From a virus: DNA of 25,104 nt. The DNA lies in the IMG/VR virus record IMGVR_UViG_3300023179_000480, positions 1 through 25,104 of that record; one strand, 5' to 3'. The notes under the pieces are model-generated. The model ran no database searches. It was not told where the DNA came from and saw nothing but the letters and a program-made list of their open reading frames with translations. Made by a program: the position numbers and the translations under genes. This document shows, one piece after another, positions 2,996 through 21,000 of this stretch; position 1 is the first letter of the stretch; the number at the start of each line of letters is the position of its first letter.

Positions 2996-3157
2996 ATGGC
3001 TAAAAAACCGGTGTGGGAAACTAAGGACCCTTCTAAAAAAGATAAACCCTTAAGCAAAAAGCAAAAAGCTTCCGCTAAAGCTAAGGCTAAGGCTGCTGGC
3101 AGACCTTATCCTAACCTAGTGGATAACATGAACGCCTCTAAGAGAAAGAAGAAATAA
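2996..3157 (+). CDS. Small basic phage protein (GRPYPNLVDNM type)
   Basis: A 53-residue protein, MAKKPVWETKDPSKKDK at the start, a Lys/Ala helix in the middle and AGRPYPNLVDNMNASKRKKK at the end. An AGGA four bases into the short leader (2986-2989) lies six bases before the ATG. I recall similar small proteins with the GRPYPNLVDNM end from other phages, always of unknown function. Its stop overlaps the next ATG (TAATG). Confidence 0.75.
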   Translation: MAKKPVWETKDPSKKDKPLSKKQKASAKAKAKAAGRPYPNLVDNMNASKRKKK

Positions 3158-3432
3158 TGGCAAAACACAAATGTGGTAAGTGCGCCGGCTGTAAAAAAGG
3201 TCTAAAGTGCACTATGGAGTGGAAGGACCAAAAGAAATCTTGGTCTGGCTCTAAAGCTGATGAAAAGGCTGACAAGAAGACCATGGAGGGTATGAGTCCT
3301 AAGCAAAAAGCCGCTTTTAAGAAGGCTGATGAAAAGATGGACAAGAAGAATCCTTCTAAAAAGGAAGACAAAAAGATGGATGCCGCTTTGGCTAAAAAGG
3401 TCAAGAAAACAGTTCCTGCTAAAAAGAAATAA
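3157..3432 (+). CDS. Lysine-rich protein with N-terminal cysteine cluster
   Basis: A 91-residue protein. Residues 6-18 carry four cysteines in the arrangement C-x2-C-x2-C-x5-C (CGKCAGCKKGLKC), which could bind a zinc ion or an iron-sulfur cluster, followed by a highly charged, probably helical and partly disordered Lys/Asp/Glu region (KADEKADKK, KKADEKMDKKNPSKKEDKK). It ends in a Lys-rich VPAKKK tail. It is the last gene before the intrinsic terminator. No family is recognised; nucleic-acid binding is plausible from charge and cysteines, not shown. Confidence 0.65.
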   Translation: MAKHKCGKCAGCKKGLKCTMEWKDQKKSWSGSKADEKADKKTMEGMSPKQKAAFKKADEKMDKKNPSKKEDKKMDAALAKKVKKTVPAKKK

Positions 3433-4660: not shown

Positions 4661-7159
4661 ATGGCGACTTATAACCGCCCCGGAGTGTACCTAGAAGAAG
4701 TAGCAAGCACTCCACCAGTAGTCGGAAGCGGAACCACCGCAGTAGCCACCTTTATGGGGCCATTGGTTAAGGGTCCACTAGAGGCTACCCTCGTAACCTC
4801 ATGGACACAGTTCACCACTCTATTTGGCGATGTATCAGCTAACTCTGCGGACGTTGACGTGCCAACAGCAGTCTACTTGTTCTTTGCAAATGGAGGAAGC
4901 CAGTGCTACATTCAGCGTGTTGTTACTACCATTACTGCGGTATCTACAGCTGCTACTACTGCTAGCACCTCTTTAGTTGTCGCGGCGGCTACATCCTTGC
5001 CTACCTCTGATGGCAATAACTCTGGAAGTATTTCTACCGGTATGTTTATTTCAGGAACCGGTATTCCTGCTGGAACAACTATTACAAACGTAGTAAGCCA
5101 GACTTTGACTCTAAGCCAAAGCGCTTCAGTTCCGGCTAACACTACCTTAATTATTGGAACTCCAGTATCCTCATCTGTAACTATCTACGGAAGCACTACA
5201 GCTGGAAACACTGCTACGCTTGCGGCTCAAACTCCTGTTACTAGTTACAGTATTGCAACTCAAACCCCAACTGGAACAACTAACATAACTATTACTACTG
5301 CAAGCCATAACTTTAGCGTTGGTCAATCTGTTACTATTGCCGGTGTTACCCCTGCCGGATATAACGGAACTTGGGTTACGCAAACCGGTACTACTGGAAC
5401 TACTCTAGTTGTAAACATTGGTTCTAACCCTGGCGCAATTACTGTTGCTGGTGCAGTAGCCCCTGTAGGTCAAACTACTACAACTCTTACTACTTCTGCT
5501 GCTCACAACTTGCTTGTTGGTCAAACAGTAGTAATTGCTGGAACTACCTCTACCGCTAGTTACAATGGTAACTTTGTAGTAACAGCAGTTCCAACTACAA
5601 CTACCTTTACAGTAGTAAATCCATTGGCTCCTATTGCCCCTATTACTGGTGCAGGAACCGTTACAGCGTACAATACTGCTAGGTCAGAACTTACTCTTAC
5701 TGCTAAGAACCCTGGTGTATGGAGCAACTCTCTTTACTATGAGATTTCAAGCTCTACCACTAGCGGAGCTTATCCAGGTAAGTACTTTAACTTGGCTATT
5801 TACTCTGGTGGAACTACCGCCGGGTTTATTGTGGAGCGTTTCTCTGATTTAACTATGCTTGCCACAGATTCGTCATATGCTCCTACTATCGTTAATGCAT
5901 CTTCTGCTTATGTAGTGGCATCTGACCCTAACTCTGCAAACCACACGGCTGACAAATTTACCAACGCTAATAACCCGCTCTCTGTTAATTTAGTTGCTCT
6001 AACCGGTACGGTTGCTTCTCAGGTTACTGCTAGCACAAGCGTTACTCTTAGTGCTGATGTTACAGGACTTAGCGTTGGTATGTATGTTTACGGAAGCGGT
6101 GTTGCTGCTGGTACAAAGGTAAGCGCTTATAACTCAAGCACTAAGGTAATAACCCTTAGCGCTAATGCCACTATTAGTGCTGGAGCTATTTTAACCTTTG
6201 TAAATACTCCATTTACTGGTGGTACAGATGGAACTTCTGTAAATAACACTGCAGTAGCTGCAACATCCTCGCTAGCTAAATTGGATGTTATTCCTTCTCC
6301 TATCTTGCTTAACGCTCCAGGTATTACCGCACTAAACGACGTTAATAACCTTTTAAACTACGCGTATAGCCGTGGAGATGTGTTTGTAATCATTGACCCT
6401 ACGCAGGTTACTACAGATGCGGTAAGCCAATTAAACCTAGCAAATACCTATACCGGTGGTTCCGGAGGTTCTTCAGCACTTGGTTTTGGAGCGGTTTATT
6501 TCCCCAACTTAACAATTCCAAGTTTAACTTCAAGTGCGCCTGGAGCAACAGTTACTGCCTATCCTGGTGGCGCAGTTGCCGCTAAGTATGTTACTACTGA
6601 CTCATCTAGAGGCGTATTTAAGTCCCCAGCTGGTCTAGAAGCAAGACTTTCAGGCGTAGTGTCTGTAGCTAAGCTAACTAGTACAGAACTAGATTATTTG
6701 AACACTGGAAGCAGCAGCAGCACTTTCTCTACCGCAACTCCGGTAAATGCTATCCGTTACATCCCTGGTTCAGGAATTGTAGTTATGGGAGCTAGAACCC
6801 TAAGTACTTCTTACAATAACAAGTATGTATCTGTAAGGAGAAGCCTAATCCAACTTCGCAAGCAACTTACTGATGCAACTGCTTTCGCTGTCTTTGAGCC
6901 TAATGACCAGCGTTTGTGGAACAGAATTAAGACCACTTGTGAAGTAACCCTAATTAACTTCTGGCAGGCTGGTGGTTTGCGCGGAACAACTCCACAGGAT
7001 GCGTTCTTCGTAAAGTGTGACTCTACAATCAACACTGTGTCAAGCATCGCCGCTGGTGAAGTTCACGTTGAAATCGGTGTAGCCCTACAGCGCCCTGCCG
7101 AATTCATTGTTATCCGTATTAGCCAATACGACAGTGGCTCTGTTGTAACAGTCCTATAG
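4661..7159 (+). CDS. Tail sheath protein with inserted beta modules
   Basis: An 832-residue contractile sheath subunit that surrounds the tube and drives contraction. The start has the sheath signature NRPGVYLEEV (residues 5-14), the middle has LTLTAKNPGVWSNSLYYEI (344-362), and residues 640-832 form the conserved C-terminal core with VSVRRSLIQLRKQL, FEPNDQRLWNRI, FWQAGGLRGTTPQDAFFVKCD and a final interlocking strand. Sheath proteins are commonly near 400-700 residues. The excess is explained by at least four small beta modules at about residues 99-166, 205-263, 272-335 and 456-513, which interrupt the sheath fold in its outer domains. The ribosome-binding site AAGGAG lies eight bases before the ATG. 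Tail identity is very secure; the role of the modules is inferred. Confidence 0.96.
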   Translation: MATYNRPGVYLEEVASTPPVVGSGTTAVATFMGPLVKGPLEATLVTSWTQFTTLFGDVSANSADVDVPTAVYLFFANGGSQCYIQRVVTTITAVSTAATTASTSLVVAAATSLPTSDGNNSGSISTGMFISGTGIPAGTTITNVVSQTLTLSQSASVPANTTLIIGTPVSSSVTIYGSTTAGNTATLAAQTPVTSYSIATQTPTGTTNITITTASHNFSVGQSVTIAGVTPAGYNGTWVTQTGTTGTTLVVNIGSNPGAITVAGAVAPVGQTTTTLTTSAAHNLLVGQTVVIAGTTSTASYNGNFVVTAVPTTTTFTVVNPLAPIAPITGAGTVTAYNTARSELTLTAKNPGVWSNSLYYEISSSTTSGAYPGKYFNLAIYSGGTTAGFIVERFSDLTMLATDSSYAPTIVNASSAYVVASDPNSANHTADKFTNANNPLSVNLVALTGTVASQVTASTSVTLSADVTGLSVGMYVYGSGVAAGTKVSAYNSSTKVITLSANATISAGAILTFVNTPFTGGTDGTSVNNTAVAATSSLAKLDVIPSPILLNAPGITALNDVNNLLNYAYSRGDVFVIIDPTQVTTDAVSQLNLANTYTGGSGGSSALGFGAVYFPNLTIPSLTSSAPGATVTAYPGGAVAAKYVTTDSSRGVFKSPAGLEARLSGVVSVAKLTSTELDYLNTGSSSSTFSTATPVNAIRYIPGSGIVVMGARTLSTSYNNKYVSVRRSLIQLRKQLTDATAFAVFEPNDQRLWNRIKTTCEVTLINFWQAGGLRGTTPQDAFFVKCDSTINTVSSIAAGEVHVEIGVALQRPAEFIVIRISQYDSGSVVTVL
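4955..5665 (+). repeat. Three beta modules inserted in the sheath (types B, A, A)
   Basis: Sheath residues 99-166 form one type-B module (GMFISGTGIPAGTTITNV, LTLSQSASVPANTTL). Residues 205-263 and 272-335 are two adjoining type-A modules, each with HN-F/L-x-VGQ-x-V-x-IAG, a YNG turn and a final TTxxVV strand. The flanking NGGSQCYIQRVV and RSELTLTAKNPGVW belong to the sheath fold itself. Confidence 0.75.
6026..6199 (+). repeat. Fourth sheath beta module (type B)
   Basis: Sheath residues 456-513. SADVTGLSVGMYVYGSGVA and AGTKVSAYNSSTKVITLS are closely similar to residues 933-969 of the 1086-residue gpI-like protein, 14 kb downstream. Confidence 0.8.
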
Positions 7160-7171
7160 GAGGAAAAATAA

Positions 7172-7801
7172 ATGGCACAAAGCGCAATTTCACGCTTTTC
7201 AAAGCTGGCTACTGACCCTTTAAGAAATTTTAGGTTCATAGTTGACTTTCGTGTAACTGGAGACCCTGGTGTGCCAGGTTCTCCTGCGGCTGGTACTAGC
7301 AGCTTCTTGAAGTTCAAGGGCGGGTTTAGCTCCATTGATGGACTAAACATTAGCACCAACAGCATTAGCTACCGAGAGGGCGGTATGAATACTACCCTGC
7401 ACCAGGTTCCAGGAATGACATCGTTCTCTCAAATTACTCTAAACCGAGGAGTAATTCTTGGTCAGTCTGAGGGAATTAACTGGATGAAGCAGCTATTTGC
7501 TGCAGCTTCCGGTGAAGGTATTCCTGGTGTAGACGGCTCTACCTTTAGATGCGATATGGACATTTATGTTCTTGACCATCCAATTACTGGAACTCCGCTA
7601 ATCTCTGCCGGTGATATTTTGAGCACTTCGGCTTACAAAATGAAGTTCATTGTTCACAATGCTTTTATTGTAAATCTAAACTATTCGTCCCTAAACGCTA
7701 CTGACAACCAGTTAATGTACGAAACCATGAGTTTGGTGCACGAAGGCCTTTCTGTTCAGCTAGCTGACTTTGGTTCAAGCGTCCCTGCTACTTTAACTTA
7801 A
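7172..7801 (+). CDS. Tail tube protein (T4 gp19-like)
   Basis: A 209-residue protein with the layout of the T4 gp19 tube family: DPLRNFRFIVDF near residue 16, GGFSSIDGLNIST (about 50-62), ISYREGGMNTTLHQVPGM (about 66-83), ITLNRGVILG and a WMKQLF helix, then a C-terminal strand pair. It polymerises into the inner tube through which DNA passes. It follows the sheath by 12 bases, with a full AGGAGG site at 7158-7163 that overlaps the sheath stop codon, consistent with high expression. Unlike the sheath it carries no inserted modules. Confidence 0.94.
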   Translation: MAQSAISRFSKLATDPLRNFRFIVDFRVTGDPGVPGSPAAGTSSFLKFKGGFSSIDGLNISTNSISYREGGMNTTLHQVPGMTSFSQITLNRGVILGQSEGINWMKQLFAAASGEGIPGVDGSTFRCDMDIYVLDHPITGTPLISAGDILSTSAYKMKFIVHNAFIVNLNYSSLNATDNQLMYETMSLVHEGLSVQLADFGSSVPATLT

Positions 7802-7812
7802 ATCTGGTAAAC

Positions 7813-7820
7813 TATAAATA
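7813..7820 (+). promoter_or_regulatory. Possible T4-like late promoter (TATAAATA)
   Basis: An exact TATAAATA lies in the 38-base gap between the tube and chaperone genes. This is the late -10 box used by T4-like phages through a dedicated sigma factor. Transcription would start near 7827, almost at the AGGAG ribosome-binding site (7828-7832), which is tight. No late sigma factor is visible in this window. Confidence 0.3.
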
Positions 7821-7839
7821 AATAATTAGGAGCATAAAT

Positions 7840-8640
7840 ATGGTTGATAATACAACTGATAATCCAGCAGCAATTGCTGAGGCTGTCAAAGAACTTAATA
7901 AAACTAATGTGACTGAGGTTACTACTGTAGCCCCGTCTAATTCAGAAGTAATACTGCCAGGCGGTTTTATTTCTGAAGATGGTTCTGTAATCAAATATGC
8001 TGAAGTTCGAGAACTTAACGGTATTGATGAAGAAGCCATCTCAAAGGCGGGGTCTGTGGGTAGAGCATTAGCTGCAATGTTGCAGCGTGGTGTGGTATCT
8101 ATCGGTACTAACCCGGTTACAAAAAGTGAAATTGATAGCTTACTTAGTGGCGACCGAGATGCCCTTCTTTTAGGTATCAGACGTGTTACCTTTGGCGATA
8201 CTATTGAGTTTGAATTTCCGTGCCCTCATTGTAAAACGGATTTGGATGTCATAGTAGACCTAGTTGAAGATATCCCGGTAAAAAGCCTTGATGACCCAAT
8301 CAATGGTAGAACATTTACTTACACATCTAAAAAGCATGGAATAATTGAAGTATCTCTACCTACCGGTGTGGTTCAAAAGAAGCTTATTGAAAACTCAGAT
8401 AAAACGGTATCTGAGTTAAACACTATTCTTCTAGGTGGCTGCATTAGGTCTATTAATGGTAATCCGTCATTAGGTGCCACCTCTGCTTTAAATCTTGGAA
8501 TGGTTGACCGTGAGGCAATTGTTAATGAGATTATTGCTAATAACCCGGGCCCACGCCTCGGGGAGGTGAAGACGACTTGCGAGGCTTGCGGCGAGGAAAT
8601 TCCTATGCCACTGTCGTTAGCTGACTTGTTTCGTCTATAA
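7840..8640 (+). CDS. Zinc-binding tail-assembly chaperone / gp26-like baseplate protein
   Basis: A 266-residue protein encoded between tube and tape measure, where tail-assembly chaperones are found in nearly all long-tailed phages. Residues 120-140 have FEFPCPHCKTDLDV with Cys128 and Cys131, and residues 247-250 have CEACGEE with Cys247 and Cys250, together a likely four-cysteine zinc site. The segment between resembles the T4 gp26-type baseplate/assembly family. The protein ends PLSLADLFRL-stop. A second reading frame continues the protein with no start codon of its own, so a minor 312-residue form made by frameshift is likely (see the next two entries). It would bind the tape measure before tube assembly. 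Confidence 0.75.
   Translation: MVDNTTDNPAAIAEAVKELNKTNVTEVTTVAPSNSEVILPGGFISEDGSVIKYAEVRELNGIDEEAISKAGSVGRALAAMLQRGVVSIGTNPVTKSEIDSLLSGDRDALLLGIRRVTFGDTIEFEFPCPHCKTDLDVIVDLVEDIPVKSLDDPINGRTFTYTSKKHGIIEVSLPTGVVQKKLIENSDKTVSELNTILLGGCIRSINGNPSLGATSALNLGMVDREAIVNEIIANNPGPRLGEVKTTCEACGEEIPMPLSLADLFRL
8626..8640 (+). other. Probable programmed +1 frameshift site (TTTC, stop two codons later)
   Basis: Zero-frame codons are TTG TTT CGT CTA TAA. At TTT-C (8629-8632) the Phe tRNA on TTT can slip one base forward onto TTC and keep full pairing. The +1 frame is open from 8621 (after its own TAG at 8618-8620) to 8779, so the change of frame must occur inside the short overlap 8621-8637. No GGGGGG-like or X-XXY-YYZ heptamer that would favour -1 or -2 slippage lies in the overlap. 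Direct proof needs peptide data. Confidence 0.6.
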
Positions 8641-8779
8641 AGAAAAAGATTACGAACAACTACTCGATGAATACGAAGTATTAGCCAGAGCATTTTCAGG
8701 ATGGACACTCTCTGACATTAGAGAGCTTTCAGTAAGAGAACGTAAAAATTGGCTGCATAGAGCAGCCAGAGGTAAGTAA
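8633..8779 (+). CDS. Frameshift extension of the tail-assembly chaperone
   Basis: Forty-eight codons in the +1 frame, from GTC 8633 to TAA 8777-8779. The peptide is clearly protein-like: KDYEQLLDEYEVLARAF, then GWTLSDIRELSVRERKNW and HRAARGK. A 'W-T-L-x-x-I-x-x-L-x-x-R-E-R' helix pattern is typical of the second part of split tail-assembly chaperones in long-tailed phages. There is no ATG, GTG or TTG in this frame between the upstream in-frame stop and the end, so independent initiation is unlikely. The expected fused product is 264 residues of the upstream gene plus these 48. The alternative is a sequencing indel that splits one continuous gene. Confidence 0.7.
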   Translation, partial: VYKEKDYEQLLDEYEVLARAFSGWTLSDIRELSVRERKNWLHRAARGK

Positions 8780-8790
8780 AGCGAGTAAGT

Positions 8791-10953
8791 ATGCCAGATG
8801 ATATTAAATCCGGATTGAACCTAGGCGGTCCCGGAAACACCAGTGGCGGCTCAAAAGCAAGTCGTTTAGTAGCTGACCTTACTGAAAATTATCGTAAGCT
8901 TGACCAGATAATCGAAAAGATTGAAGGCCGCACTAAATCCATCTCCACTAACTTAAGGAACGCTTTTCCTGGTGGCACTAGCGGCGGCGGTTCATCTGCT
9001 GGCAGTTCTATGTCTTTTGTGGACGGTGGGACTGTTCCTGTTGGTGGTCGTTCTTCTAGCGGATTCCTTCAAGGAAGTAATGGCAGCAAGTTTGACTGGA
9101 AAGGCGCTCTTAGCACCATGGGTAGTGCAGCCCTTACTGGGGCTGCAAAACTTTTGGTTCCCGCCGATTACATTACCAATGATATTGCAATAAATAGATT
9201 TGGGTTCTTTAACGCAGGTAATACCTCCGATGCTACTAAAAAAATAGCTACGGATACTATGGGCAACATGATGCACTATGGTACCGCCATTAGTAATCTA
9301 GACGCAGCTAATGCTGTTATGGCTGGCTCTAGCATGGGTTTTATGCCAGGACTATCAAACTATGGAACAGTAAAAGGAAGCGTAGCAAACGTTTCTAACG
9401 TTGTTCCAGGAGCTGGTTTAGAGGCCAGTATGGGCGCAGTAGCGGCATTAAACCAAGGTGCTAGTGTAAATAAACTTCGTATGCTTGGTATTCAAGTTCG
9501 TGACCCGCAGGGTTATATGAGAAGTGTTGAAGATATTGCTAAAGACTTGTGGAAAACAATAAGTAGAACAAAAACTGGTGGAAGTGCAGCAATTACTCAA
9601 GCTGACCTTTCTTACTCTTTGCAACCTGGTATGTCTTTAGACATGCTACTAAACCAGTATTTTGCTGGAGACCCAGTTCTTAGACAATCAATTATTGCTT
9701 ATCTATTTCAGTTTGCGGCACAAGGAGGAGCAACTGATGTAAATAATGGTAAGTTACTTGCATCAGGTGCTAGACCTGGGATTACAGAAAGCGTAGCTAA
9801 TAGAGAGTATCAGTCATATAATTTTATGAATAGATATACTGGGGCCGGTGTTGCTGGAATAATGGGTGGAAATACAGTTATATCTTCAATTTCTGGTACA
9901 TTAGCTAACTTAGGTCCTATTTTGGGAGGGGTCGCTAGTGGTGCGGTAACTGCAAGCACATTTTTAGAGACAATTGCTGGTGCTGGTAATGGGGGCGGTG
10001 GAGATGTTTTAGGTGGTCTAGGTAGTTTGCTTAAATCTGGTGCCGGCGGTGACTTAGGCGGTATATTTACCGGACTAGGCTCAGCGGCTATAGATTTAGC
10101 TGTACCATTAGCCGCAGCATTTCTTGTTGCTGGAGTTGTAGATGCAATTGCACAGCATAAATTAAGTCCGGATGAAATAAAGAATTTTATGAAAGTAGGT
10201 TACGGTTCGGACTATAACAATCTAAATAGCCCTAACTGGAAAAAACCCAGCGTTGTTAGTGATAAGCCCTTGGGTGGAGGTTTTGGTATGGGGGTACCAT
10301 TGGGTGGATTATTTAGTAAAGCAACTGCTGAAACTGGTTTAGTTATTGACGATGCTTTTAGAGATTCTGCTATTCATAGAATTACAAGTGATTACAATGT
10401 TCGTAGAACGTACACTGACCTAAAAGGAATTAAGCATACAGATATCCATGATGGGGTGGATTATGGGGCTAAAGAAGGCCTTAGCTTATTCCCAGTAGCT
10501 GGTGGAAAAGTTGCGGCAAATAAATATGAACCTAATGGTAAGGGGAACTATTTAGTTGTTCGTCATCCTAACGGCTACAGTACGATATATGGCCATATGA
10601 AGAGCAGAAGTGCTCTTGCTGAGGGAACATCGGTTGGATTAAGTACAAAAATAGGTGAAGTTGGAAAAACCGGTTCGGCAACTGGTGCTCACCTACATTT
10701 AGGCGTTCAAGACGATAATGGTAAATTATACAATCCGCATGACTTTTTAAATAATAATTTACCTAGTCGTGGAAGTGTAGGCGGCGGTTATGGCCAGGGT
10801 GCTCCTCTGGAAACTACTACAACTAATTATGGAGGCGTTGTCGTAAATATTAATTTGCCACAAAATGCCAGTATCAATGAAACTGTTTTGGCTAAAGAAA
10901 TTAAACGAATAATAACTCAGGATACGCGTATCAGAGAGGCTGTAAGTAGATAA
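8791..10953 (+). CDS. Tape measure protein with C-terminal M23 peptidase domain
   Basis: A 720-residue Gly/Ala/Ser-rich protein, placed directly after the chaperone gene as a tape measure should be. Residues 20-60 form a charged coiled coil (ENYRKLDQIIEKIEGR), the middle is glycine-rich with a hydrophobic helix (AAIDLAVPLAAAFLVAGVVDAIA, split here in two runs: AAIDLAVPLAAA and FLVAGVVDAIA), and residues about 540-665 are an M23 zinc endopeptidase: His553 and Asp557 in HDGVDYG, His634 and His636 in HLHLGV. All catalytic positions are present, so it should cut peptidoglycan cross-links during penetration. The end (about 680-720) has VVVNINLPQNASI and an amphipathic helix. It is short for a tape measure, so a short tail of roughly 100 nm would be expected. 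The start codon has only a weak Shine-Dalgarno sequence. Confidence 0.85.
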   Translation: MPDDIKSGLNLGGPGNTSGGSKASRLVADLTENYRKLDQIIEKIEGRTKSISTNLRNAFPGGTSGGGSSAGSSMSFVDGGTVPVGGRSSSGFLQGSNGSKFDWKGALSTMGSAALTGAAKLLVPADYITNDIAINRFGFFNAGNTSDATKKIATDTMGNMMHYGTAISNLDAANAVMAGSSMGFMPGLSNYGTVKGSVANVSNVVPGAGLEASMGAVAALNQGASVNKLRMLGIQVRDPQGYMRSVEDIAKDLWKTISRTKTGGSAAITQADLSYSLQPGMSLDMLLNQYFAGDPVLRQSIIAYLFQFAAQGGATDVNNGKLLASGARPGITESVANREYQSYNFMNRYTGAGVAGIMGGNTVISSISGTLANLGPILGGVASGAVTASTFLETIAGAGNGGGGDVLGGLGSLLKSGAGGDLGGIFTGLGSAAIDLAVPLAAAFLVAGVVDAIAQHKLSPDEIKNFMKVGYGSDYNNLNSPNWKKPSVVSDKPLGGGFGMGVPLGGLFSKATAETGLVIDDAFRDSAIHRITSDYNVRRTYTDLKGIKHTDIHDGVDYGAKEGLSLFPVAGGKVAANKYEPNGKGNYLVVRHPNGYSTIYGHMKSRSALAEGTSVGLSTKIGEVGKTGSATGAHLHLGVQDDNGKLYNPHDFLNNNLPSRGSVGGGYGQGAPLETTTTNYGGVVVNINLPQNASINETVLAKEIKRIITQDTRIREAVSR

Positions 10954-12287
10954 TGTCTGGAAATACAAGCTCTAATGGAGCAGACAGAAGTGGCGGAAAA
11001 GCCGGTAGCGGTACCAAGGGATATATCTACAAACTTGGAAATGGATACGATTATAAGAATTTTGGTGTGGTTTCAGATACTCTCTCTATTTCTGTTCAGG
11101 GGTTTGAGTTTGACAGAATTAAGCAAGGTAAGGATGTTGTCCAATTATATAGAGCAAATGCTGATGCTAATGGTGATTACCTTATCTATATGCATGAACT
11201 CAGTTCTAGTATGGTTAATAATGCAAACTCAAATCAGCTTTACCACACTGTAGGGACAAAAGTTCACTTAATTAAGCAAGGAACTTCTGAAACTTTAGAT
11301 TTGCCTTATTATTACGTGCCCGGTGCTGGCGAGATAGCGGCTCCACCGCCTGTTATAACAAAACCTGGAACTGAGGTAATTGTGCCAGCTCCGCCTCAAG
11401 ACCCTAATCAATATCAATGGAATCTTCCGCCGCACAAATGGAGTCTTCCATTTACTGCAGGTAGTGATTTAAATAACATGCCTAATGGTCATAGAAAATC
11501 CCCGTCTGATGATAGATACAGACGTGGCCGTATTTGGTGGAGAGCTACTCAGGCTGACCTAACTACTACTGATGGTACGGGAAAAACTATAACTGTAGAT
11601 AATTCGGATAGAAAATACGGCTTCCAATTTTTATGGAATCCAGAAACTTTTGGTACCGCGGTGTCTGTTCAAATGGATGCTACCCCACAAATTCAAGATA
11701 GATTTGCCGCAACTGTTGGGGCATTCCCTGCTACAGAGACAATTAGTTTTACTCTTAGAATAGATAGAACAAATGATTTTGCATGCGCTAACGCATATTT
11801 TAAGCGCCCTACGAATATTGTTCAGGATTCTACTAATACAGGACAAAATAATTTTATTTCGGCTAAGGACACATATAGATTTATACGATTTTATCAAAAT
11901 GCCGGAAGTTTTAATAGTGGCCTTATTAAAAAGGGAAAGGTATCTACTGTAGAAGAAAAGTTAGTCGACCTTTTCCAACGAGGTACTTTAGCCGATATTG
12001 AATATCTATATAAAGCTATAAATGGCCCTGGTCCTGGTGGAGGTTCTTCTTCTAATGACTATTGGAAAAATGCACGAGGAATTATTACGGCTGATATTGG
12101 TTGGCTTATGCCTACCCTACTTAACGTAGACGTTGGTCCGCTATCATATATAGGATATGTAACTTCTATGAGTGTTACGCATATTGGATTTACCCCTGAT
12201 ATGATTCCTATTAGAAGTGATGTAAATATTTCTCTCAACCTGCTTGCTACAGCTGGCCTAAGTACTTCAAGTAATGGAGGAAAATAA
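10953..12287 (+). CDS. Tail tube/baseplate hub adaptor protein
   Basis: A 444-residue protein that starts inside the previous stop (TAATG overlap). Two parts are joined by a Pro-rich linker around residues 125-160 (APPPVITKPG, IVPAPPQDPNQ). The C-terminal part has KYGFQFLWNPETF and ends with IGYVTSMSVTHIGFTPDM, a beta-rich pattern seen in adaptor proteins that join tube and hub in contractile tails (encoded between tape measure and the gpD-like hub). No enzyme motif is seen. Position and beta pattern are the basis; the family is not firmly named. It ends GGK and overlaps the next ATG by one base. Confidence 0.6.
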   Translation: MSGNTSSNGADRSGGKAGSGTKGYIYKLGNGYDYKNFGVVSDTLSISVQGFEFDRIKQGKDVVQLYRANADANGDYLIYMHELSSSMVNNANSNQLYHTVGTKVHLIKQGTSETLDLPYYYVPGAGEIAAPPPVITKPGTEVIVPAPPQDPNQYQWNLPPHKWSLPFTAGSDLNNMPNGHRKSPSDDRYRRGRIWWRATQADLTTTDGTGKTITVDNSDRKYGFQFLWNPETFGTAVSVQMDATPQIQDRFAATVGAFPATETISFTLRIDRTNDFACANAYFKRPTNIVQDSTNTGQNNFISAKDTYRFIRFYQNAGSFNSGLIKKGKVSTVEEKLVDLFQRGTLADIEYLYKAINGPGPGGGSSSNDYWKNARGIITADIGWLMPTLLNVDVGPLSYIGYVTSMSVTHIGFTPDMIPIRSDVNISLNLLATAGLSTSSNGGK

Positions 12288-12574
12288 TGCCTATTTATTT
12301 AGGGTCTAGGTACGAAAAAATGCCTATTAAGTTTTTTTCTGTAAAACCTGATGCAGACCCCTCTCCTACTGTTTATTACCAGTTCCCTTCTTCGCCTACC
12401 GTTCAAAGAAATTATTCGATATATGACTGGAAAGACGGGGACCGAATTGAATCCGTGGCTTTTCATTTTTATTCTTATCCGAGTAAATGGTGGTTAATTG
12501 CTGATAATAACCCACAAATAATTGATTGGTTAAACGTGCCTGTTGGAACAAGGATTAGGATACCGCGTGGCTAA
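12287..12574 (+). CDS. X: gpX/LysM-like baseplate protein
   Basis: A 95-residue protein. Residues 45-95 resemble the LysM-like fold of P2 gpX and the T4 gp53 family: DWKDGDRIESVAFHFYSYPS, KWWLIADNNPQIIDW and PVGTRIRIPRG, that is a 'D-x-x-x-S-I-A-x-x-x-Y', a 'W-W-x-I-A-x-x-N' and a final 'V-G-x-x-L-x-I-P' element. In P2-like phages this protein lies just before the hub gene D, as here. The symbol follows P2 use and is by analogy. Confidence 0.75.
   Translation: MPIYLGSRYEKMPIKFFSVKPDADPSPTVYYQFPSSPTVQRNYSIYDWKDGDRIESVAFHFYSYPSKWWLIADNNPQIIDWLNVPVGTRIRIPRG
12557..12560 (+). promoter_or_regulatory. Ribosome-binding site that fixes the GTG start at 12567
   Basis: AGGA lies six bases before GTG 12567. 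The more upstream TTG at 12543 and the later ATG at 12579 have poorer spacing or no site, so GTG 12567 is preferred. Confidence 0.5.
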
Positions 12575-13913
12575 TCCTATGAATGCAATTGCTGATGGCG
12601 GCATGGACCAAGCAGCTTACGCCTCTGTTTATTTTCCGCATAATGACAGAGCGCCTAAGCGCGTCTATCGGGTTACTCTTCGCCAAGAGGTGTTTGCTCA
12701 TGACTACGCTGATGTTTATTTTAGAGATTGGAACGTCAGCCCATCTACTATAAAGCCCGGTTCTCCTATGGTGATTAGCATACGTGGTAAAAAATTTTAT
12801 GGGATGGTGCATAACGTAGAAAACATCCAAGAAGTTTCTAAAAACTTTACAAAAATTGGATGGATTGGAGCGTCTTATTACATGCACCAATCTAGTCAAA
12901 AGATATATAGAAACGTTACTGCTAGCCAAGTAATTATTGAAATAGCAAAAAAATATAACTTTGCTTACAGGGTTCATCCACATAAGCGCATCTATTCTTC
13001 TGTTGTTCAGGGAGGCAGAACTGATTGGGAGCTTATGGTTTCTTTAGCAAGAGAATGCGGATATCTACTAAGAGCAGAAAATACCGAAATACATTTTCAT
13101 CCAATTTGGGAAGAGTTTAATAGATATATAAATGAGGCAGCTATATTTGATAAGGGCGATGCTGGGTTTAAAACTAAAAATCCTATTTATGGATTTAATC
13201 CTATAATTAGTGAAACCATGAGCCATCTTGGTTTTAAAAAGGCTGCGACTTCAATTGCCGGTGTTAATCCTATAGATGGAAGTTATTTTAAAGTCACAAA
13301 TCAGGACCCGTTTACTCCAAGCAGAGCTGACTCAAATCCAGAGTTATTTGACGACCACGATACAGAAGCGGTAGCTAATGACTTTACCACCGCGTCTCAT
13401 CTTGCAAAAAGCTCCGATGACTATAGCAGTTTTCCTTATATTGCAGAAGTAGATTGCATAGGAGTTTCTTCAGTACGACCCTGCCTTCCTGTATATCTAA
13501 ATAATATTGGAGATGAGTATACTGGCTATTGGACAGTGCTTAGTATTCTTCATGAAACAATAGAGGCATCATTAAATCAACCTGTTTACACAATTTCTAT
13601 GACGGTAGCAACAGACTCTTTGGGTCAAATTTCTGACCCTAATAAGCCTGTTACTCCTCCAGTCAACCCAACAAGGCGTGTTATTCCGAACGTGAACAAC
13701 ACGATTGTTTCTCCACAAACTGTATTAAATACGCCTGGGTTATCTATTATCCCTATTCAACAGTATGAGGTTGTTGATAGAACAAATCGTTTAGGGCTCA
13801 CTGGTCCATTGGTTTCTGTTTCAAAATGGGGTTCTACTCATGGGGATTTAACATATACATATAATGAAAAAAATATGCCGGAAATTGTAAGAGCAAAGGT
13901 GTATAGAATATGA
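12567..13913 (+). CDS. D: Baseplate hub protein, gpD/gp27-like
   Basis: A 448-residue protein when started at GTG 12567 (MANPMNAIADGG). It has the pattern of P2 gpD, T4 gp27 and VgrG hub domains: strands VYRVTLRQEV, the SIRGKKFYGMV strand followed by IQEVSKNF and TKIGWIG, then NVTASQVIIEIAKKYNF and WELMVSLARECGYLLR. The 'A-S-Q-V-x-x-x-I-A-x-x-Y' and 'W-E-L-x-x-x-L-A-R-x-x-G-Y' elements are characteristic of gpD-like hubs. It forms the trimeric ring that holds the spike and joins the tube. It overlaps the gpX-like gene by eight bases and the spike gene by four (ATGA). The long C-terminal region with Pro and Asn is less conserved. Confidence 0.8.
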   Translation: MANPMNAIADGGMDQAAYASVYFPHNDRAPKRVYRVTLRQEVFAHDYADVYFRDWNVSPSTIKPGSPMVISIRGKKFYGMVHNVENIQEVSKNFTKIGWIGASYYMHQSSQKIYRNVTASQVIIEIAKKYNFAYRVHPHKRIYSSVVQGGRTDWELMVSLARECGYLLRAENTEIHFHPIWEEFNRYINEAAIFDKGDAGFKTKNPIYGFNPIISETMSHLGFKKAATSIAGVNPIDGSYFKVTNQDPFTPSRADSNPELFDDHDTEAVANDFTTASHLAKSSDDYSSFPYIAEVDCIGVSSVRPCLPVYLNNIGDEYTGYWTVLSILHETIEASLNQPVYTISMTVATDSLGQISDPNKPVTPPVNPTRRVIPNVNNTIVSPQTVLNTPGLSIIPIQQYEVVDRTNRLGLTGPLVSVSKWGSTHGDLTYTYNEKNMPEIVRAKVYRI

Positions 13914-14674
13914 GCACAAAAGATATGAGATATTACGGTATTTATAGAGGAGTTGTTGTTTCTACAACAGACCCTTTGGGTAAAGGTAGAGTTGCCCTTA
14001 AAGTCCCTCAGATATCAGGCGATGAAATAACTAACTGGGCTTGGCCTATTATCGGTGTACCTGAAAATAGGAAAGTGCCTTATGGTTCTTTTTATGATTT
14101 CACAAACCAGTTTGCCGGTAATAAAGATTCTACGTCTGTGGGCGACAGTACATACCCTCCAGCCGCCAACACTCCGATATCTATGAGATTGGGATATACT
14201 GATACTACTACTACACAGTTTGTTTATGTAGACGGCGGCGATAATACTAAAATAACTTTTAAAAAAGCTGGTATTTATAATTTCCAATGGTCCGCTCAGT
14301 TTGTAAATACTGATGTAGCTCTTTCAGATGTATCGGTATGGTTAAGGCAAAATGGTGTGGATTTAGACGGTTCTACTGGTCTTGTATCTATACCTAACAG
14401 CCACGCTGGTGGCGATGGTCATTCAATTACGGGATGGAATTATCTTATTAATGCTAAAGCAAATGATTACATAGAACTTTGGTGGACTTGTAATAAATCA
14501 AATACATATATAGCTACATACCCCGCAAGTACTAGTCCTGTATATCCATCAACCGCTTCAGTAGTAGCTACTGTAGACTTGGTTGGTGGCTTTAACCCAG
14601 TTGCGGGAGACCCTTGCTGGGTTATGTTTGAAGGTGGAAACCCCAATTTCCCTCTATGGTTAGGAACATTTTAA
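13910..14674 (+). CDS. V: Spike protein (gpV/gp5-like OB-fold) with inserted C1q-like domain
   Basis: A 254-residue protein. Residues 8-52 (YYGIYRGVVVSTTDPLGKGR, then VPQISGDEITNWAWPI) and 226-254 (PVAGDPCWVMFEGGNP, FPLWLGTF) are the two halves of a gp5/gpV N-terminal OB-fold, which caps the hub and carries the spike. They are separated by about 170 residues: a linker, then a beta domain with ITFKKAGIYNFQWSAQF, SVWLRQNGVD and AKANDYIELWWTC, the pattern of the C1q/TNF-like domain often found at phage fibre ends. There is no lysozyme and no beta-helix. The gene follows the hub gene by ATGA overlap. A cap for the spike that also displays a binding or support domain is inferred. Confidence 0.8.
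   Translation: MSTKDMRYYGIYRGVVVSTTDPLGKGRVALKVPQISGDEITNWAWPIIGVPENRKVPYGSFYDFTNQFAGNKDSTSVGDSTYPPAANTPISMRLGYTDTTTTQFVYVDGGDNTKITFKKAGIYNFQWSAQFVNTDVALSDVSVWLRQNGVDLDGSTGLVSIPNSHAGGDGHSITGWNYLINAKANDYIELWWTCNKSNTYIATYPASTSPVYPSTASVVATVDLVGGFNPVAGDPCWVMFEGGNPNFPLWLGTF
14078..14587 (+). other. C1q/TNF-like domain inserted in the spike OB-fold
   Basis: Codons for residues 57-226 of the spike protein. The segment from about residue 88 has the jelly-roll pattern of the C1q-like domain, with a GIYNFQWSAQF strand and a NDYIELWW strand, and the last strand ASVVATVDLV returns into the OB-fold at GGFNPVAGD. The linker 57-88 is Asn/Asp-rich and polar. Confidence 0.7.
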
Positions 14675-15100
14675 ATGAATGAAGTTCAATTAGATTACCC
14701 ATTTAGCTTTGGTAGAAGCGCTGATGGTAAGTATCTTACTACTCTTGGTGCGTCTAGCGACTATAGAACTATTTGGAAAAACAGAATCTTATTGGTTCTT
14801 GGAACTAGGCCCGGTGAGCGCGTAATGCGACCAGACTTTGGAAGTAACCTATACTCTGCGGTCTTTGAACCGGAGGCAACCGCTGCTGAAATTATAAATG
14901 ACAGTATTAATCAGGCCTTTAGTAAGTGGCTTCCTGACCTTATTCTTAATAGGATAACTCCAACTTTTGACCCAGGAGCTGGGTTATTATCTATATCTTT
15001 AATCTATGCCTTGCCCACTGGCGAAGTAGATAGTGTTACAATTAATACCGGAATATTCAATCGTTCCGGGGACCTTATTCAGGAGATAAACAATGGCTGA
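14675..15100 (+). CDS. W: Baseplate wedge protein, gpW/gp25 family
   Basis: A 141-residue protein with the gpW/gp25 signature around residues 34-70: IWKNRILLVLGTRPGERVM, RPDFGSNLYSAVFEP, then an amphipathic helix AAEIINDSINQAF. The R-P-G-E-R-V-M-R-P-D-F-G block is the best-known mark of this family, which triggers sheath contraction at the inner baseplate and copies the sheath's core handshake domain. It starts directly after the spike stop codon and overlaps the wedge gene by eight bases. Confidence 0.93.
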   Translation: MNEVQLDYPFSFGRSADGKYLTTLGASSDYRTIWKNRILLVLGTRPGERVMRPDFGSNLYSAVFEPEATAAEIINDSINQAFSKWLPDLILNRITPTFDPGAGLLSISLIYALPTGEVDSVTINTGIFNRSGDLIQEINNG

Positions 15101-17273
15101 TACAAATAACTCTTTAGTTACTTATATCCCGCAAATTGACTATACGTCCAGGGACTATATTGCGCTACTTAATGATTTAACCACCTTAGCACAACAGTTT
15201 AACCCAAAGTGGAGCGCTACAAATCCGTCAGATATTGGGGTTACTCTATTAGAGCTTTTTGCATATCTAGGGGATATTCTAAACTACTATGCAGACCGTT
15301 CTGCTTCTGAGGGTTTTCTAAGCACAGCAAGCCAAAGACAAAGCATTCTTCAACTTGCCGCAATGCTAGGATATGCTGTTACAACAAATCAGCCAGCGAT
15401 TGTAAATCTTACACTGGGTAATACATCTGCCTCAGATATTATAGTTCCTTCTCTTACTCAGTTTAAAGGAAGTCAAATAATAAATGGCCAAACTACAGAT
15501 GTAACCTTTGAATTAGATAGTGATGCGTATGTGCCAGCCAATTCTTCAGTTACGGTTACCGCAACGCAAGGAATTACTTATTCTAACGTTACTCTTGGCA
15601 CGTCTACAGGTGCACCAAATCAGGTGTTTAAGATAAACTCTACTAACGTAATTATTAATGGCTCCGGTTCTACAGCAAGTCTAAAAGTTTTTGTTGGAGA
15701 TATTCAATATACCTACGTATCAACATTGGTTGATAGCACCTCTTATGATTCTACATTTACAACATCTGTAGATTCCGATGGCTACACTTATGTTATTTTT
15801 GGCGATGGTGTATTTGGAAGAGTTCCTACGGTGTCGCTTACAGTAACAGCAACTTATAGAGTTGGAGTTGGAGCTGATGGTAATATATCAGCTGGTACTA
15901 TTACCGGACTTGCAAATAACAATGTTTCAAACATAACTGTAACACAGACCTCTGATGCTAGCGGTGGTACGGATATTGAAAGCAGTGACTCAATTAGAGT
16001 TAATGCTCCCAGAGCTTTACGTACTCTTAGGCGCGCAGTTTCTCTTAAAGACTACGCTTATATGGCTCTACAAGTTCCAGGAGTATCAAAGGCAATTGCT
16101 GATTCCTCCGTATGGACCAGCGTAAACTTATATGTTGGACCTAATAGTTCTGCAGCATCATCTACTTATGGCCCTTTTACTGGTGTAACTAAGGTAGAAA
16201 AAACGGCTAGTGATAGTACAGCTTATGTTAGCGGAACTTCCTATTTAACATATACTTGCACTAACTCCGGACTAGCTGTTGGTCAATACGTTAGTGTAAC
16301 AGGTATGGCACCGGTTAACTATAATATCTATGCGCCTGTTTTGGTCACATACGCAGATAGCACAAAGTTTACAGTTCAAGGAACATACAGTACAGCCATT
16401 AATACAGGATTATCTGCAAATGCTAAGGTAACTTCTACCGGTGACCCTACCACATCATTTGCATCTTTACAAAGTACAATTTTGTCATACTTTACTGATA
16501 AGGTAGCCCCTAACGTAAATCTATCGGTTCAACCACCAAGCTATGTACCTGTAAATATAGATTTGGATTTAAAGGTAATTAAGAGTTATCAACAAAGCAC
16601 TGTTTTGGCTCAAGTAGATAGTATGCTATCTAGCTTATTTGATTACAACAATTCATTCTTTGCGGATATTATATCACCAAACTTTATAGTCACAGCATTA
16701 CTAGGAATTAGCGGTGTTGATACTACTACCGTAATTACACATCTAAGAAGAAATACAGATGAAAAAGTATTTAGTGTCTCTTACTATACGAACACTACAA
16801 CTGCAATTACTTTAACAACTAGCACAAATCATAGTTTGGTAGCTGGTGATACTATTTATGTATACAATGTTGATTCTACTGTAGATGGGACTTATACTAT
16901 AGCTAGCGCAACTAGCAATACAGTTACCTTTAATAAGTCTATGGCAGCGGCCACGCCTACTGGTATTACATCTTCTACTAGCTGGACTACTGCTACTACA
17001 GAACTTACAGTTAGCAGCACAACTGGAATTCAAGTTGGTATGAACGTCACTGGAACAAATCTTATCAGCACTGTTAAATCTATCGGGACTGGTAAAATTA
17101 CATTGAATTCAAAACCAAGCGGTTCTGGAACAGGCGCACTGACCTTTACAAAACCTTATTCAAGTGCGGATAACTATATAAGGCTTAAGTCTATTGAAAC
17201 AGTTAACTGCGCTATAAATGAAATCCCAGTCAAGGGAACAATAACTATAAAAACCACTGGCGGACTTTCTTAA
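15093..17273 (+). CDS. J: Baseplate wedge protein, gpJ/gp6 family, with inserted beta modules
   Basis: A 726-residue protein. Residues 10-100 show the baseplate J signature (YIPQIDYTSRDYIALLNDL, DIGVTLLELFAYLGDILNYY, ADRSASEGFL, LQLAAMLGY), residues 228-242 have the YTYVIFGDGVFGR motif, and 305-340 the RALRTLRRAVSLKDYAYMAL and VPGVSKAIAD segment. These place it with T4 gp6 and P2 gpJ, the wedge dimers that clamp the baseplate. Typical gpJ is about 300-400 residues and gp6 about 660. Three beta modules, at 384-446, 568-622 and 632-686, interrupt the later domains. The final residues 690-726 (YIRLKSIETV to ITIKTTGG) are the last strands of the J fold. Confidence 0.92.
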   Translation: MADTNNSLVTYIPQIDYTSRDYIALLNDLTTLAQQFNPKWSATNPSDIGVTLLELFAYLGDILNYYADRSASEGFLSTASQRQSILQLAAMLGYAVTTNQPAIVNLTLGNTSASDIIVPSLTQFKGSQIINGQTTDVTFELDSDAYVPANSSVTVTATQGITYSNVTLGTSTGAPNQVFKINSTNVIINGSGSTASLKVFVGDIQYTYVSTLVDSTSYDSTFTTSVDSDGYTYVIFGDGVFGRVPTVSLTVTATYRVGVGADGNISAGTITGLANNNVSNITVTQTSDASGGTDIESSDSIRVNAPRALRTLRRAVSLKDYAYMALQVPGVSKAIADSSVWTSVNLYVGPNSSAASSTYGPFTGVTKVEKTASDSTAYVSGTSYLTYTCTNSGLAVGQYVSVTGMAPVNYNIYAPVLVTYADSTKFTVQGTYSTAINTGLSANAKVTSTGDPTTSFASLQSTILSYFTDKVAPNVNLSVQPPSYVPVNIDLDLKVIKSYQQSTVLAQVDSMLSSLFDYNNSFFADIISPNFIVTALLGISGVDTTTVITHLRRNTDEKVFSVSYYTNTTTAITLTTSTNHSLVAGDTIYVYNVDSTVDGTYTIASATSNTVTFNKSMAAATPTGITSSTSWTTATTELTVSSTTGIQVGMNVTGTNLISTVKSIGTGKITLNSKPSGSGTGALTFTKPYSSADNYIRLKSIETVNCAINEIPVKGTITIKTTGGLS
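16242..16430 (+). repeat. Type-A beta module inserted in gpJ-like protein
   Basis: Residues 384-446: LAVGQYVSVTGMAPVNYNIY, ADSTKFTVQ and a closing GLSANAKVTST strand, matching the A-type pattern V-G-Q-x-V-x-x-x-G ... Y-N ... T-x-F-T-V of the sheath modules. Confidence 0.7.
16794..17150 (+). repeat. Two beta modules (types A, B) near the end of gpJ-like protein
   Basis: Residues 568-622 (TTAITLTTSTNHSLVAGDTI, VDGTYTIAS, NTVTFNKS) are type A. Residues 632-686 (TTATTELTVSSTTGIQVGMN, STVKSIGTGKITLNS) are type B. They separate the penultimate J strands from the final YIRLKSIETV. Confidence 0.7.
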
Positions 17274-17282
17274 GGAGAAATA

Positions 17283-17993
17283 ATGGCCACTTATCCAAAT
17301 AATATAAAAAGCTTTACCACAAAAGTTGACGGAGTTACTACCGTAGCTGCTGCTGATGTAAATGACCTACAATCAGAAGTTGTCGCTGTGCAAACAGCTT
17401 TAGGTACTAACCCCGCGGGGTCTGTGCTGGGCACAAGTAGCATTGGTACATATACCGCCGTACCTGGAACACTGAATAACGTGAGCGCAAGACTTCAAAA
17501 TCTTGAGGCGGGTCTAACCGCTAATGCTACAGACGGTGCTAGAGTTGGGTATACGTTACTTGATTCGGGTAACTGGACTGCATCAAAGACTGTAACGGTT
17601 GCTGGTAGCAGTTATGTAAAAATTGTAATAGTAATTAACTGTACTACTCAAGCCACAACTAACCAAGGTGCAGTTTTAATTAAAGTAAACTCAGCTACTT
17701 CTGGATATAAATACGCAAACTTTACTTATGCATCACCCCCTACAAGTGCCGGAGGTACTAATGGAGTAGGGTTTTTAGCAAGCGCTAACGCTGCATTTTT
17801 AACCGGAGATTCTGTAACTTTAGAAATTTATAACGTTGCCAATGCTGGAAGAAAAACTGCTGTTTGGTATTCTGATGCTGGATATGGAGCAGGTTCTATA
17901 GATGTTGCTGCTGTAACTCAAGTTGTTTTAGCGGTAACAACAGGAGCTAACTATCCGGCAGCAGCTACTTACTCTGTATATGGCGTTAAATAA
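17283..17993 (+). CDS. Tail fibre-like virion protein
   Basis: A 236-residue protein. Residues 1-45 have the fibre-base pattern YPNNIKSFTTKVDGVTTV, AADVNDLQSEVVAVQTALG and TNPAG, frequent at the N-terminus of phage fibre proteins; the helix around DLQSEVVAVQTAL would trimerise. Residues 60-95 include a second short coiled coil (LNNVSARLQNLEAGL), and 100-236 are a beta-rich head (SYVKIVIVINCTT, VTLEIYNVAN). It sits between the gpJ-like and gpI-like genes. An AAGGAG site overlaps the gpJ stop codon, five bases before the ATG. Confidence 0.75.
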   Translation: MATYPNNIKSFTTKVDGVTTVAAADVNDLQSEVVAVQTALGTNPAGSVLGTSSIGTYTAVPGTLNNVSARLQNLEAGLTANATDGARVGYTLLDSGNWTASKTVTVAGSSYVKIVIVINCTTQATTNQGAVLIKVNSATSGYKYANFTYASPPTSAGGTNGVGFLASANAAFLTGDSVTLEIYNVANAGRKTAVWYSDAGYGAGSIDVAAVTQVVLAVTTGANYPAAATYSVYGVK

Positions 17994-18004
17994 TAGGTGA
18001 TTAA

Positions 18005-21000
18005 ATGACAGTATATGGCAGTAAACAGTATTACACGTTTACCTACGGGTCTGCGACTGTAGCTAATTTTAATATCTATCCGTTCATAGCTCGCTCTGCT
18101 GACTACGGGTGTATAGAGTTATCTTGGTTTATGCCTACATATAATGCGTCATTTTCAAAATTACTTGTATTAAGAAGCCCAATTGATTATCCAACTACTG
18201 CGGATGATGGCGATTTAATTTATCAAACAACTAAAACTGCTTTATCTACAGCAGGAAGTGGTCTTCCAGTTACCCTTACTGGTGTAAGTTCGACTGGAAC
18301 AAAATTTACCGTATCTAGTACAGCAAATATATCTGAGGGTCAAACCGTTTCATCTATTACTGCTGGTACTGGAACACTTGATACTAGTGATATTACAGCA
18401 ATTACCCAAATTATTGATTCAACTACATTTATTGTAAATGTTGCGCCAACTGTGAATTTATCAGGTGCTACTATAATCGTGTCTGATTCAATGTTAGGTG
18501 AAATATATACTTATAAAGATTATGGCTCATACATAGACCAGCTTAGCGGTTTAGCTTCTTCTGTTTACACAGGGACTGTAGATAGTAGTGTAACTAACAG
18601 TAAGTATGTGTCATTAAAGATGTCAGATTCAAATATAAAAATTAACCAAAGGGTTTCCTATACATCTAGTGGTTTATCTTATGGACCAAACTCTGGAAGC
18701 GGAATTATTGGAGGAACTACTGTTGCTGCAATTAATGGCAAATCATTAACCCTAAGCGATTACGCAAATATTCCTGCTGGTACTACACTTAACTTTTACC
18801 CAAATTATTTAGAATTAGGCAGAACGTACTATTACTCAGTGTTTGTGTATACGAACAATTATTGGCAAAGAGTTGGTACTGCAGTTGGAGTATCTGCAAA
18901 TAATTACAATACAGCTAATATTATGTACGACTTTTTACCTGAAGCTTATAAATCAACTTCAGCTCTTGCTTCTTTTGGGACATCTGGACAAAATACAGAC
19001 CTATATAACTTTTTAAGAACCTTTGCGTTTAGTTACGATTTAACTAAGACAATGATAGACAACGCAAAAAATAGATATGATATTAAAAAAATAGATGGTC
19101 GTTTAATACCTTCTATGCTTAACAGTTTTGGTTTTAATTACGAAACTGTTTTAGGATTATCTCAAGCCAGGCGTCTATTGCAGTTCGCATCAAATATCTA
19201 TTTAAACAAAGGTTCGATTACTGGTATAAAAGAATTTATTGGTGCTTTTGCGGGATACAACGTATCGATTGGGTCTCCTAGAAATCTATTATTAACTACT
19301 GATTGTTCGTCCTTTGAAACTGGAACAGGTTTTTGGGATATTGCCGGTGGTTCTGGCGGGTCAACGATTGCGTCAACAACCATGGCTAGTGAAGGAACGA
19401 CTCTTGCTCCTTATGTAGAGACCAATTCTACTACCGGATACTTAAACGGGCAAAAAGGATATCTAAAACTAAGCGTCCCCAATACTGGTGCTCCAGACCC
19501 AGAATTAACTTTTTCATACGGTATGTCATTAGACCGTTATGCAGTTGATTCGTCGAAGCATGTACCCACTGTATCAAATGGATACATAACTTTTTTCTCT
19601 AATTTACTACCTGTCTTTAAAACTGGAGGCATGTTAAACGTAAAAGGATTTAGCCCCGCCTCTGTAAATGGTACATATAAAGTTATTTACTCAGATGATA
19701 CTGGAAGAGTTACTGTAGAAAATACTGCTGTAGCAAATGGAACTTCTATAACAGGAACGGGTAGCCTTGGTATTTTTGACCCAGTGCTTTATGGAGTACC
19801 TGTAACTTCCGGAACTTATTATAAATTTAGCGTGTACACTAGCGCTTCTGTTACAAACTCTAGCATTATGTCTCTTGGGGTTAAATGGTATGACAAATTT
19901 GGTTCTTATTTAACTTATTTTGAAGATTCAAGTTACGGGTCAGGTCCGGCCGGCAGTTGGATATCGACGTTTAGCACACCTACCGTTGCCCCTTCTAGAG
20001 CCGCATATGCTATTCCTTATCTTAAATTTTCAGCCTTTACAGGAACTCCCGATGTTACTTACATAGATGCCGCTCAGTTTGAAAGCTCTAAAGGTGCGGC
20101 ATATACCCCGTTTGTTTACACCGATGCTAGAAGAATTGATTTATATTTGCAACCTACTAGAGCAAATGAGGCAATAAATCCAGGCTTTGAATCATCAGTT
20201 AAAAATTGGTCTGTTACTGGAGGCTCTATTGCTTTAGAGTCCGGAGTTTCAAATGTATACCCAACCTCTTCCGTTGGTTCCGGTTTATCTATTAGTACTG
20301 GTTCTGCGAAAATAACAGCCAGTACTACGACGACTACTGTTCAACAATTGTTTGAAATTTCTAATGTCAGCATAAGTACAAATAGGCTTCTTATTGGAAC
20401 TTCATATAGTAAGTATGGAACTGTTAATTTAACTCCTGGCCAGGCACTAAGCATAATTTCTGGGGCTGGTACATTTGCAGCTAATACTGTAGTGAGTTCA
20501 ATAGAAACATCTTCTGTATTTTATGTAAATACGACGCCAACATCTTCTGGAACAGCAACGATAGGTGTTTCTGGAAATAAGGTGCTTCCTAATCAGGCAT
20601 ACTCGTTGTCTGCTTATGTAAAGGGAACAGCTGGAGCGACTGTTGTGGCTAAAGTTGAATGGAAAAATAAAAGTGGAACGTTAGTTCAGACCGATATAAG
20701 TGACTCTATTACTTTAACTAGTAGCTTCCAAAGAGTGACCTTGACTCCAAAATCAAAATTTGCAACTGTAGCCCAAGATGCAACCGGCACATCAGTAGTC
20801 ATTAAGACTGATGTTGCCGCTGTATCTGGACAATCTGTTAGAGGTAATGGTATTGCATCCGGTACTACAGTTAGCTCATATAACTCCACTACAAAAACTA
20901 TAACTTTAAGCATCGCAGCTGCAATTGCTGCGGGTACAACTATTACGATTGGAACTATGTTGTCTCCCGCAGACGCAGCAGTTGGTGTAATAAGTTTTGT

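Follow-up and report, generated by a model that had tools for sequence, protein, structure and literature searches.

Sequence comparisons place small beta modules inserted in the sheath and baseplate proteins of a contractile phage tail within a pool widespread among phages

We analysed a 25,104-base viral record, referred to here as the window, that encodes a contractile tail. Three of the encoded tail proteins carry small repeated modules. All three are real open reading frames.

4661-7159, plus strand: tail sheath protein, 832 aa, four modules (PF17482 over cut-off; phrog_17610/23; model core against solved sheaths, Z 22.8)
15093-17273, plus strand: gpJ-like baseplate wedge protein, 726 aa, three modules (PF04865 and TIGR02243, both over cut-off)
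18005-21265, plus strand: gpI-like tail protein, 1086 aa, five modules (TIGR02242 tail domain at E 1e-4, below its cut-off; orthologues L014, L015, L126-L158)

The sheath scored 39.7 bits against PF17482, the sheath C-terminal domain (cut-off 26.9). The gpI-like match is weak and places this protein only tentatively in a known tail family. The nearest solved relatives of the sheath (4661-7159) are sheaths of Streptomyces contractile injection systems. The nearest named phages are Streptomyces phages, for example BRock, and the host may be an actinobacterium.

An earlier note on this DNA had proposed about twelve modules: four in the sheath, three in the gpJ-like protein and five in the gpI-like protein. 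Profile searches bore out this inventory, and a six-frame search of the window identified no module beyond the 12. Each spans approximately 55-80 residues. Two types had been described; we find three subfamilies, A (five copies), B (five copies) and C (two copies, solely in gpI). All are rich in Thr and Ser. Charged and aromatic residues are scarce, unlike in many lectin sites, which counts against sugar binding.

4937-5164, plus strand: module B1, sheath aa 93-168 (found by profile; absent from orthologue L006; pLDDT 76-90)
5267-5464, plus strand: module A1, sheath aa 203-268 (found by profile; lead-in IATQTPTG from approximately 5243)
5468-5680, plus strand: module A2, sheath aa 270-340 (found by profile; A copy number here ranges from one to three in orthologues)
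6008-6205, plus strand: module B2, sheath aa 450-515 (52% identity to gpI copy, E 2e-8; pLDDT 77-94)
16221-16442, plus strand: module A, gpJ aa 377-450 (weakest copy; hhalign 66% to the A profile; absent from the L008 and BRock orthologues)
16788-16976, plus strand: module A, gpJ aa 566-628 (iterated profile, E 1.7e-5 before inclusion)
16977-17162, plus strand: module B, gpJ aa 629-690 (orthologue profile finds sheath B2, 19.9 bits; absent from BRock)
18266-18490, plus strand: module C1, gpI aa 88-162 (matches C3, E 4e-6; cleanly absent from six orthologues)
18560-18805, plus strand: module B, gpI aa 186-267 (sheath-only profile, E 7e-8; pLDDT mostly 70-89, one loop near 43)
19556-19783, plus strand: module A, gpI aa 518-593 (iterated profile, E 3e-5 without inclusion)
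20351-20575, plus strand: module C3, gpI aa 783-857 (matches C1; among aligned orthologues present only in L014/L015)
20756-20959, plus strand: module B4, gpI aa 918-985 (sheath-only profile, E 1e-11; most orthologues lack it)

A type B profile made from the two sheath copies only identified gpI 923-984 (34.7 bits, E 1e-11) and gpI 191-264 (22.4 bits, E 7e-8). The top score from 100 locally shuffled protein sets was 8.7 bits. Similarly, an orthologue profile of the gpJ copy at 625-690 recovered sheath 450-515 with 19.9 bits (decoys at most 7.4). The main cross-host matches, which are the stronger type B pairs, scored 20-42 bits; shuffles that keep local composition reached at most 9.4. Hence, the proposed mutual similarity stands above the Thr/Ser background. 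For type A, two-sequence profiles found no copies in other proteins and richer profiles were needed. An iterated profile, built after two scans of viral contigs, matched gpJ 568-632 (E 1.7e-5) while this copy was still outside the model. It also matched gpI 527-587 (E 3e-5), which was never included. Finally, gpI 88-162 and gpI 783-857 are mutual matches (E 4e-6 and 8e-5) with no match to A or B. Hence, we define C as a third subfamily. Judged by these comparisons, gpJ 377-450 is the least secure copy. Profile links between A, B and C vary with the alignment used, from approximately 4% to 74%, so we make no claim of kinship between subfamilies on this basis.

The pair first named as the best, sheath 456-513 and gpI-like 926-983, is identical at 30 of 59 residues and at 58% of DNA positions; the DNA has drifted more than the protein, as first noticed. 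The longest direct DNA repeats in the window are at most 34 nt, at approximately 62-79% identity. Hence, copying within the window is visible at the protein level only.

Comparison with orthologues shows that the modules are true insertions, because close orthologues lack them, hold more of them or hold them elsewhere. Module-free orthologues exist for all three host proteins. At the threshold applied to 39 aligned sheaths, B went unmatched in 23 and A in 25. Module-free sheaths are mostly about 499 aa, compared with 832 aa in the window. Among orthologues whose core is similar, L006 lacks B1 and one A module, L001 and L019 carry three A modules each, and in L021, L141 and L162 an A module is nested within the hairpin of B2. 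Copy number and site differ even between sheaths that are approximately 67-79% identical. A tree of sheath cores places the module-bearing clade within mostly module-free relatives, with gains and losses. Outside this clade there is a separate A insertion (L062/L073) and a B-like one (L008) in the same sheath region. In an alignment with gpJ of Streptomyces phage BRock, the modules fall in clean gaps. C1, C3 or B4 is missing from gpI orthologues, and in L146 an A module sits close to the position of B4.

Structure models indicate that the host folds are not broken by the modules. The sheath model (mean pLDDT 70.5, pTM 0.57) best matches a Streptomyces contractile injection system sheath, with Z 22.8 over 311 residues. 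The rmsd against the solved sheath is 14.5 over the whole chain; hence, domains are loosely placed. The B modules are well modelled and type A poorly (pLDDT approximately 33-71). About five strands per module are seen in the whole-protein models of sheath and gpI. Although the gpI model as a whole is weak (pLDDT 60.9, pTM 0.35), two jelly rolls stand out.

19274-20098, plus strand: carbohydrate-binding module (CBM)-like jelly roll 1, gpI aa 424-698, interrupted by module A (CBM4-2, 4bj0: Z 13.9, rmsd 2.6, 150 of 166 residues aligned)
20150-21079, plus strand: CBM-like jelly roll 2, gpI aa 716-1025, interrupted by C3 and B4 (CBM61, 2xom: Z 13.6, rmsd 2.6, 136 of 145 residues aligned)

These matches span the inserts, and the gpI modules are looped out of both jelly rolls. 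Fold comparison thus identifies a CBM4/22/61-like jelly-roll fold in gpI; a Pfam search of gpI found no CBM family at E 1. Foldseek matches of the whole gpI model were mostly driven by the jelly rolls. Together with the module-free orthologues and the sheath core, the jelly rolls agree with the prior proposal that host folds stay intact. With five modules in or beside two CBM-like jelly rolls, gpI looks like a dedicated glycan-contacting part of the baseplate.

Carried to other phages, the profiles yielded 221 modules in 109 open frames of 177 loci. The hosts form 28 groups that lack similarity outside the modules; 13 groups have at least two members, and better data might join some of the small ones. 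Three sheath lineages are represented, as are gpJ, gpI, a phrog_5838 head protein, minor tail proteins and a Dit-like protein. In one 88.5-kb relative there are 18 A and B matches in six proteins, all within 6.7-43 kb. These are sheath, gpJ, gpI and three more, one of which is the phrog_5838 head protein. Among annotated phages, type A occurs in major tail proteins of Microbacterium phages, A3Wally being one, and in structural proteins of cyanophages; cyanophage fibres carry type B. The fibres of S-CAM22 and others share the type B motif, with 52% identity over 81% of the module; these carriers are fibres, whereas those in the window are sheath and baseplate proteins. A tblastn search of phages with the A1-A2 pair gave no match, probably because of low-complexity filtering. 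A less Thr-rich module from L054 used as query gave 271 records. On this sequence evidence, the modules belong to a pool that is widespread among phages and not private to this one. Elsewhere, two neighbouring proteins (L176:2174-6883) contain seven and three tandem type A modules, and the first has a C-terminal SPP1 Dit-like domain.

Module A1 of the window sheath reaches 70-76% identity with modules that other phages carry in unrelated proteins. Identity to the gpI and gpJ copies of the same phage is only 20-24%. Hence, the view that one family was copied tail-wide holds in that related modules occupy unrelated virion proteins; copying within this tail gives way to the wider pool. At the DNA level, identity between A1 and the modules that non-homologous proteins carry in other phages is mostly 68-78%. 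For the best cross-host pairs, module DNA is 73-79% identical and flanks are 7-33% identical in protein. The lead-in TQTPTGTTNITITT and tail NIGSNPGAITVAG are common to modules in unrelated hosts. Median protein identity of unrelated-host pairs is 0.67, with values up to 87%. We compared fourfold degenerate third positions where the amino acid is equal. Agreement was 0.38, against 0.33 expected for unrelated codons; the test used pairs above 60% identity only, and the pooled expectation takes no account of how codon use varies among phages. Synonymous sites are saturated and the protein is kept at approximately 67%; hence, the copies are old and held by purifying selection. Recent shuffling, suggested by the module DNA identity, was dropped because fourfold sites are near random in the codon test.

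Most accessory domains known from phage tails have so far been classed as Ig-like. We found no sign of an Ig-like nature in these modules: Ig-like Pfam families gave no match to them at E up to 10 or 0.1, and in a Pfam scan no family covered the window copies. We compared a profile of 39 type A modules with the PDB. The best match was residues 195-259 of 4hiz, a phage endosialidase (E 0.0021), and four further endosialidase sequences followed at E 0.19. In an uncalibrated single comparison, hhalign gave 94-95% for type A against the endosialidase barrel. As cut-out domains, six barrel sequences from phage records and that of K1F scored 17-27 bits against the type A profile; whole K1F scored approximately 14. 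The single best of 1000 shuffles was 9-13 bits, with 12.8 as the highest value. The barrel (PF12195; 4hiz, 1v0e, 3gvk) aligns over nearly the whole length of type A and shares the patterns HGL-VGD-V and G-x-x-T-V-x-x-V-x-x-x-x-F-T-V. This similarity was found for type A only. At the curated cut-off for PF12195 End_beta_barrel no window module was detected, and the best relative, L148, reached 22.3 bits against 35. Taken together, the profiles indicate remote homology between type A and the K1-phage endosialidase beta-barrel. This barrel is part of a depolymerase tailspike, whereas the window modules are in sheath and baseplate proteins. K1F endosialidase has three polysialic-acid sites, one in the beta-barrel and including S460 and S468 (PMC12632334, preprint). 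The K1F stretch aligned with type A, 438-498, covers both positions, and residue letters of the K1F gene agree with that numbering.

Other similarities were more limited. No window module matched PF16190 E1_FCCH at its curated cut-off of 29.5 bits. Two type-A-bearing relatives did, L148 with 34.3 and L176 with 32.7 bits. In L176 it is the first A module that is matched; in L148 the matched stretch, aa 58-97, is outside the called A modules. These matches imply no link to ubiquitin activation. Type B matched the lambda tip protein J (E 0.017), a tail tube (E 0.057) and a capsid decoration protein (E 0.21); we treat these similarities as leads only. Phage Ig-like domains, such as Hoc, the C-terminal domain of lambda gpV and the additional domains of sheaths, are likewise small all-beta accessories across unrelated virion proteins. 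They belong to other sequence families, and the window modules show a five-strand pattern in models. Phage domain mosaicism (PMC10684548) also involves fragments common to unrelated proteins, including those of tail and baseplate. That survey located its main hotspots in fibres, spikes, endolysins and polymerases. In our case the sheath is one of the main hosts, and modules nest in modules.

We marginally favour an interpretation in which the modules are promiscuous accessory barrels. Briefly, small self-contained five-stranded beta-barrel domains, drawn from a pool common to many tailed phages, enter loops of structural proteins as in-frame insertions. They are gained, lost, multiplied and nested with the host fold unharmed. 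On sheath and baseplate they would face outward, since models of 112 sheaths place the additional domains away from the tube (PMC9230969). There they may offer many weak sites for cell-surface glycans, keeping the virion near, or oriented on, its host. Weak binding of cell-surface carbohydrates has been proposed for Ig-like domains of tailed phages (PMC9230969, PMC8718954). Much of the tail is thus probably, if putatively, weakly sticky to cell-surface sugars. Head proteins of relatives also hold modules, and for these glycan binding is less obvious. A broader version appears doubtful: that all three subfamilies are branches of a single superfamily of endosialidase-type glycan-binding barrels, exchanged by tailed phages and nested across sheath, baseplate and head, which would make the virion a multivalent glycan-binding surface.

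The barrels might instead act as structural cement that has no ligand beyond the virion itself, contacting neighbouring subunits and stabilising sheath and baseplate. Stabilisation has been proposed for added sheath domains (PMC9230969), the modules of head proteins fit this role and strong conservation suits a required interface. However, one conserved module would have to fit neighbours in 28 unrelated host groups, variation in number and site between similar sheaths is awkward for a fixed contact, and most related sheaths manage without modules. Hence, we regard cement as rather unlikely. It is less likely still that the modules are merely tolerated, as easily folding barrels spread by recombination that persist because they do little harm. 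Wide spread in unrelated hosts, nesting, gain and loss are all consistent with this, but free insertions should drift. Instead, the protein is held while fourfold sites are near random, loops and lead-in TQTPTGTTNITITT included; folding constraint alone could explain part of the conservation. Contacts with other particles, such as virion aggregation or matrix attachment, in place of the host cell seem improbable. A multivalent arrangement across many tail proteins would be well suited to holding on to a matrix, and binding to epithelial layers is reported for gut-phage Ig-like proteins (PMC13370021). Scarcely credible is the possibility that the segments are native to the fold of each host family and resemble each other as Thr/Ser-rich background. 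All segments are indeed Thr/Ser-rich, but the decoy scores and the clean gaps in close orthologues already refute this for most copies; statistics are weaker for gpJ 377-450 and the C pair.

On the favoured reading of outward-facing accessory barrels, a different family, which is widely spread and reaches the contractile sheath, would behave as Ig-like accessories do. Because type A is remotely tied to a sugar-binding domain of known structure, ligands of sheath decoration become testable with small modules. The family would also help to annotate many phage entries listed as 'virion structural protein, unknown function'.

Other genes of the window have features of their own. In the gpV-like spike protein (13910-14674), Phage_base_V matches fall on two stretches, one of them at aa 12-46. 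The long region between has a weak BclA_C likeness (aa 104-159, E 0.018). It may represent another type of insert, which would bring the number of tail proteins with inserts to four; the orthologue in L008 is far shorter. A 720-aa protein (8791-10953), tape-measure-like by position, has an M23 peptidase domain at aa 552-649. Two small Lys-rich proteins are encoded at 1633-2109 and 3157-3432; in the first, AKKPA units repeat to form a histone-H1-like tail. Lastly, a small protein at 23459-23770, read from its sequence only, has a SWIM-like CxCx(n)CxH pattern and adjoins a DnaC-like ATPase.
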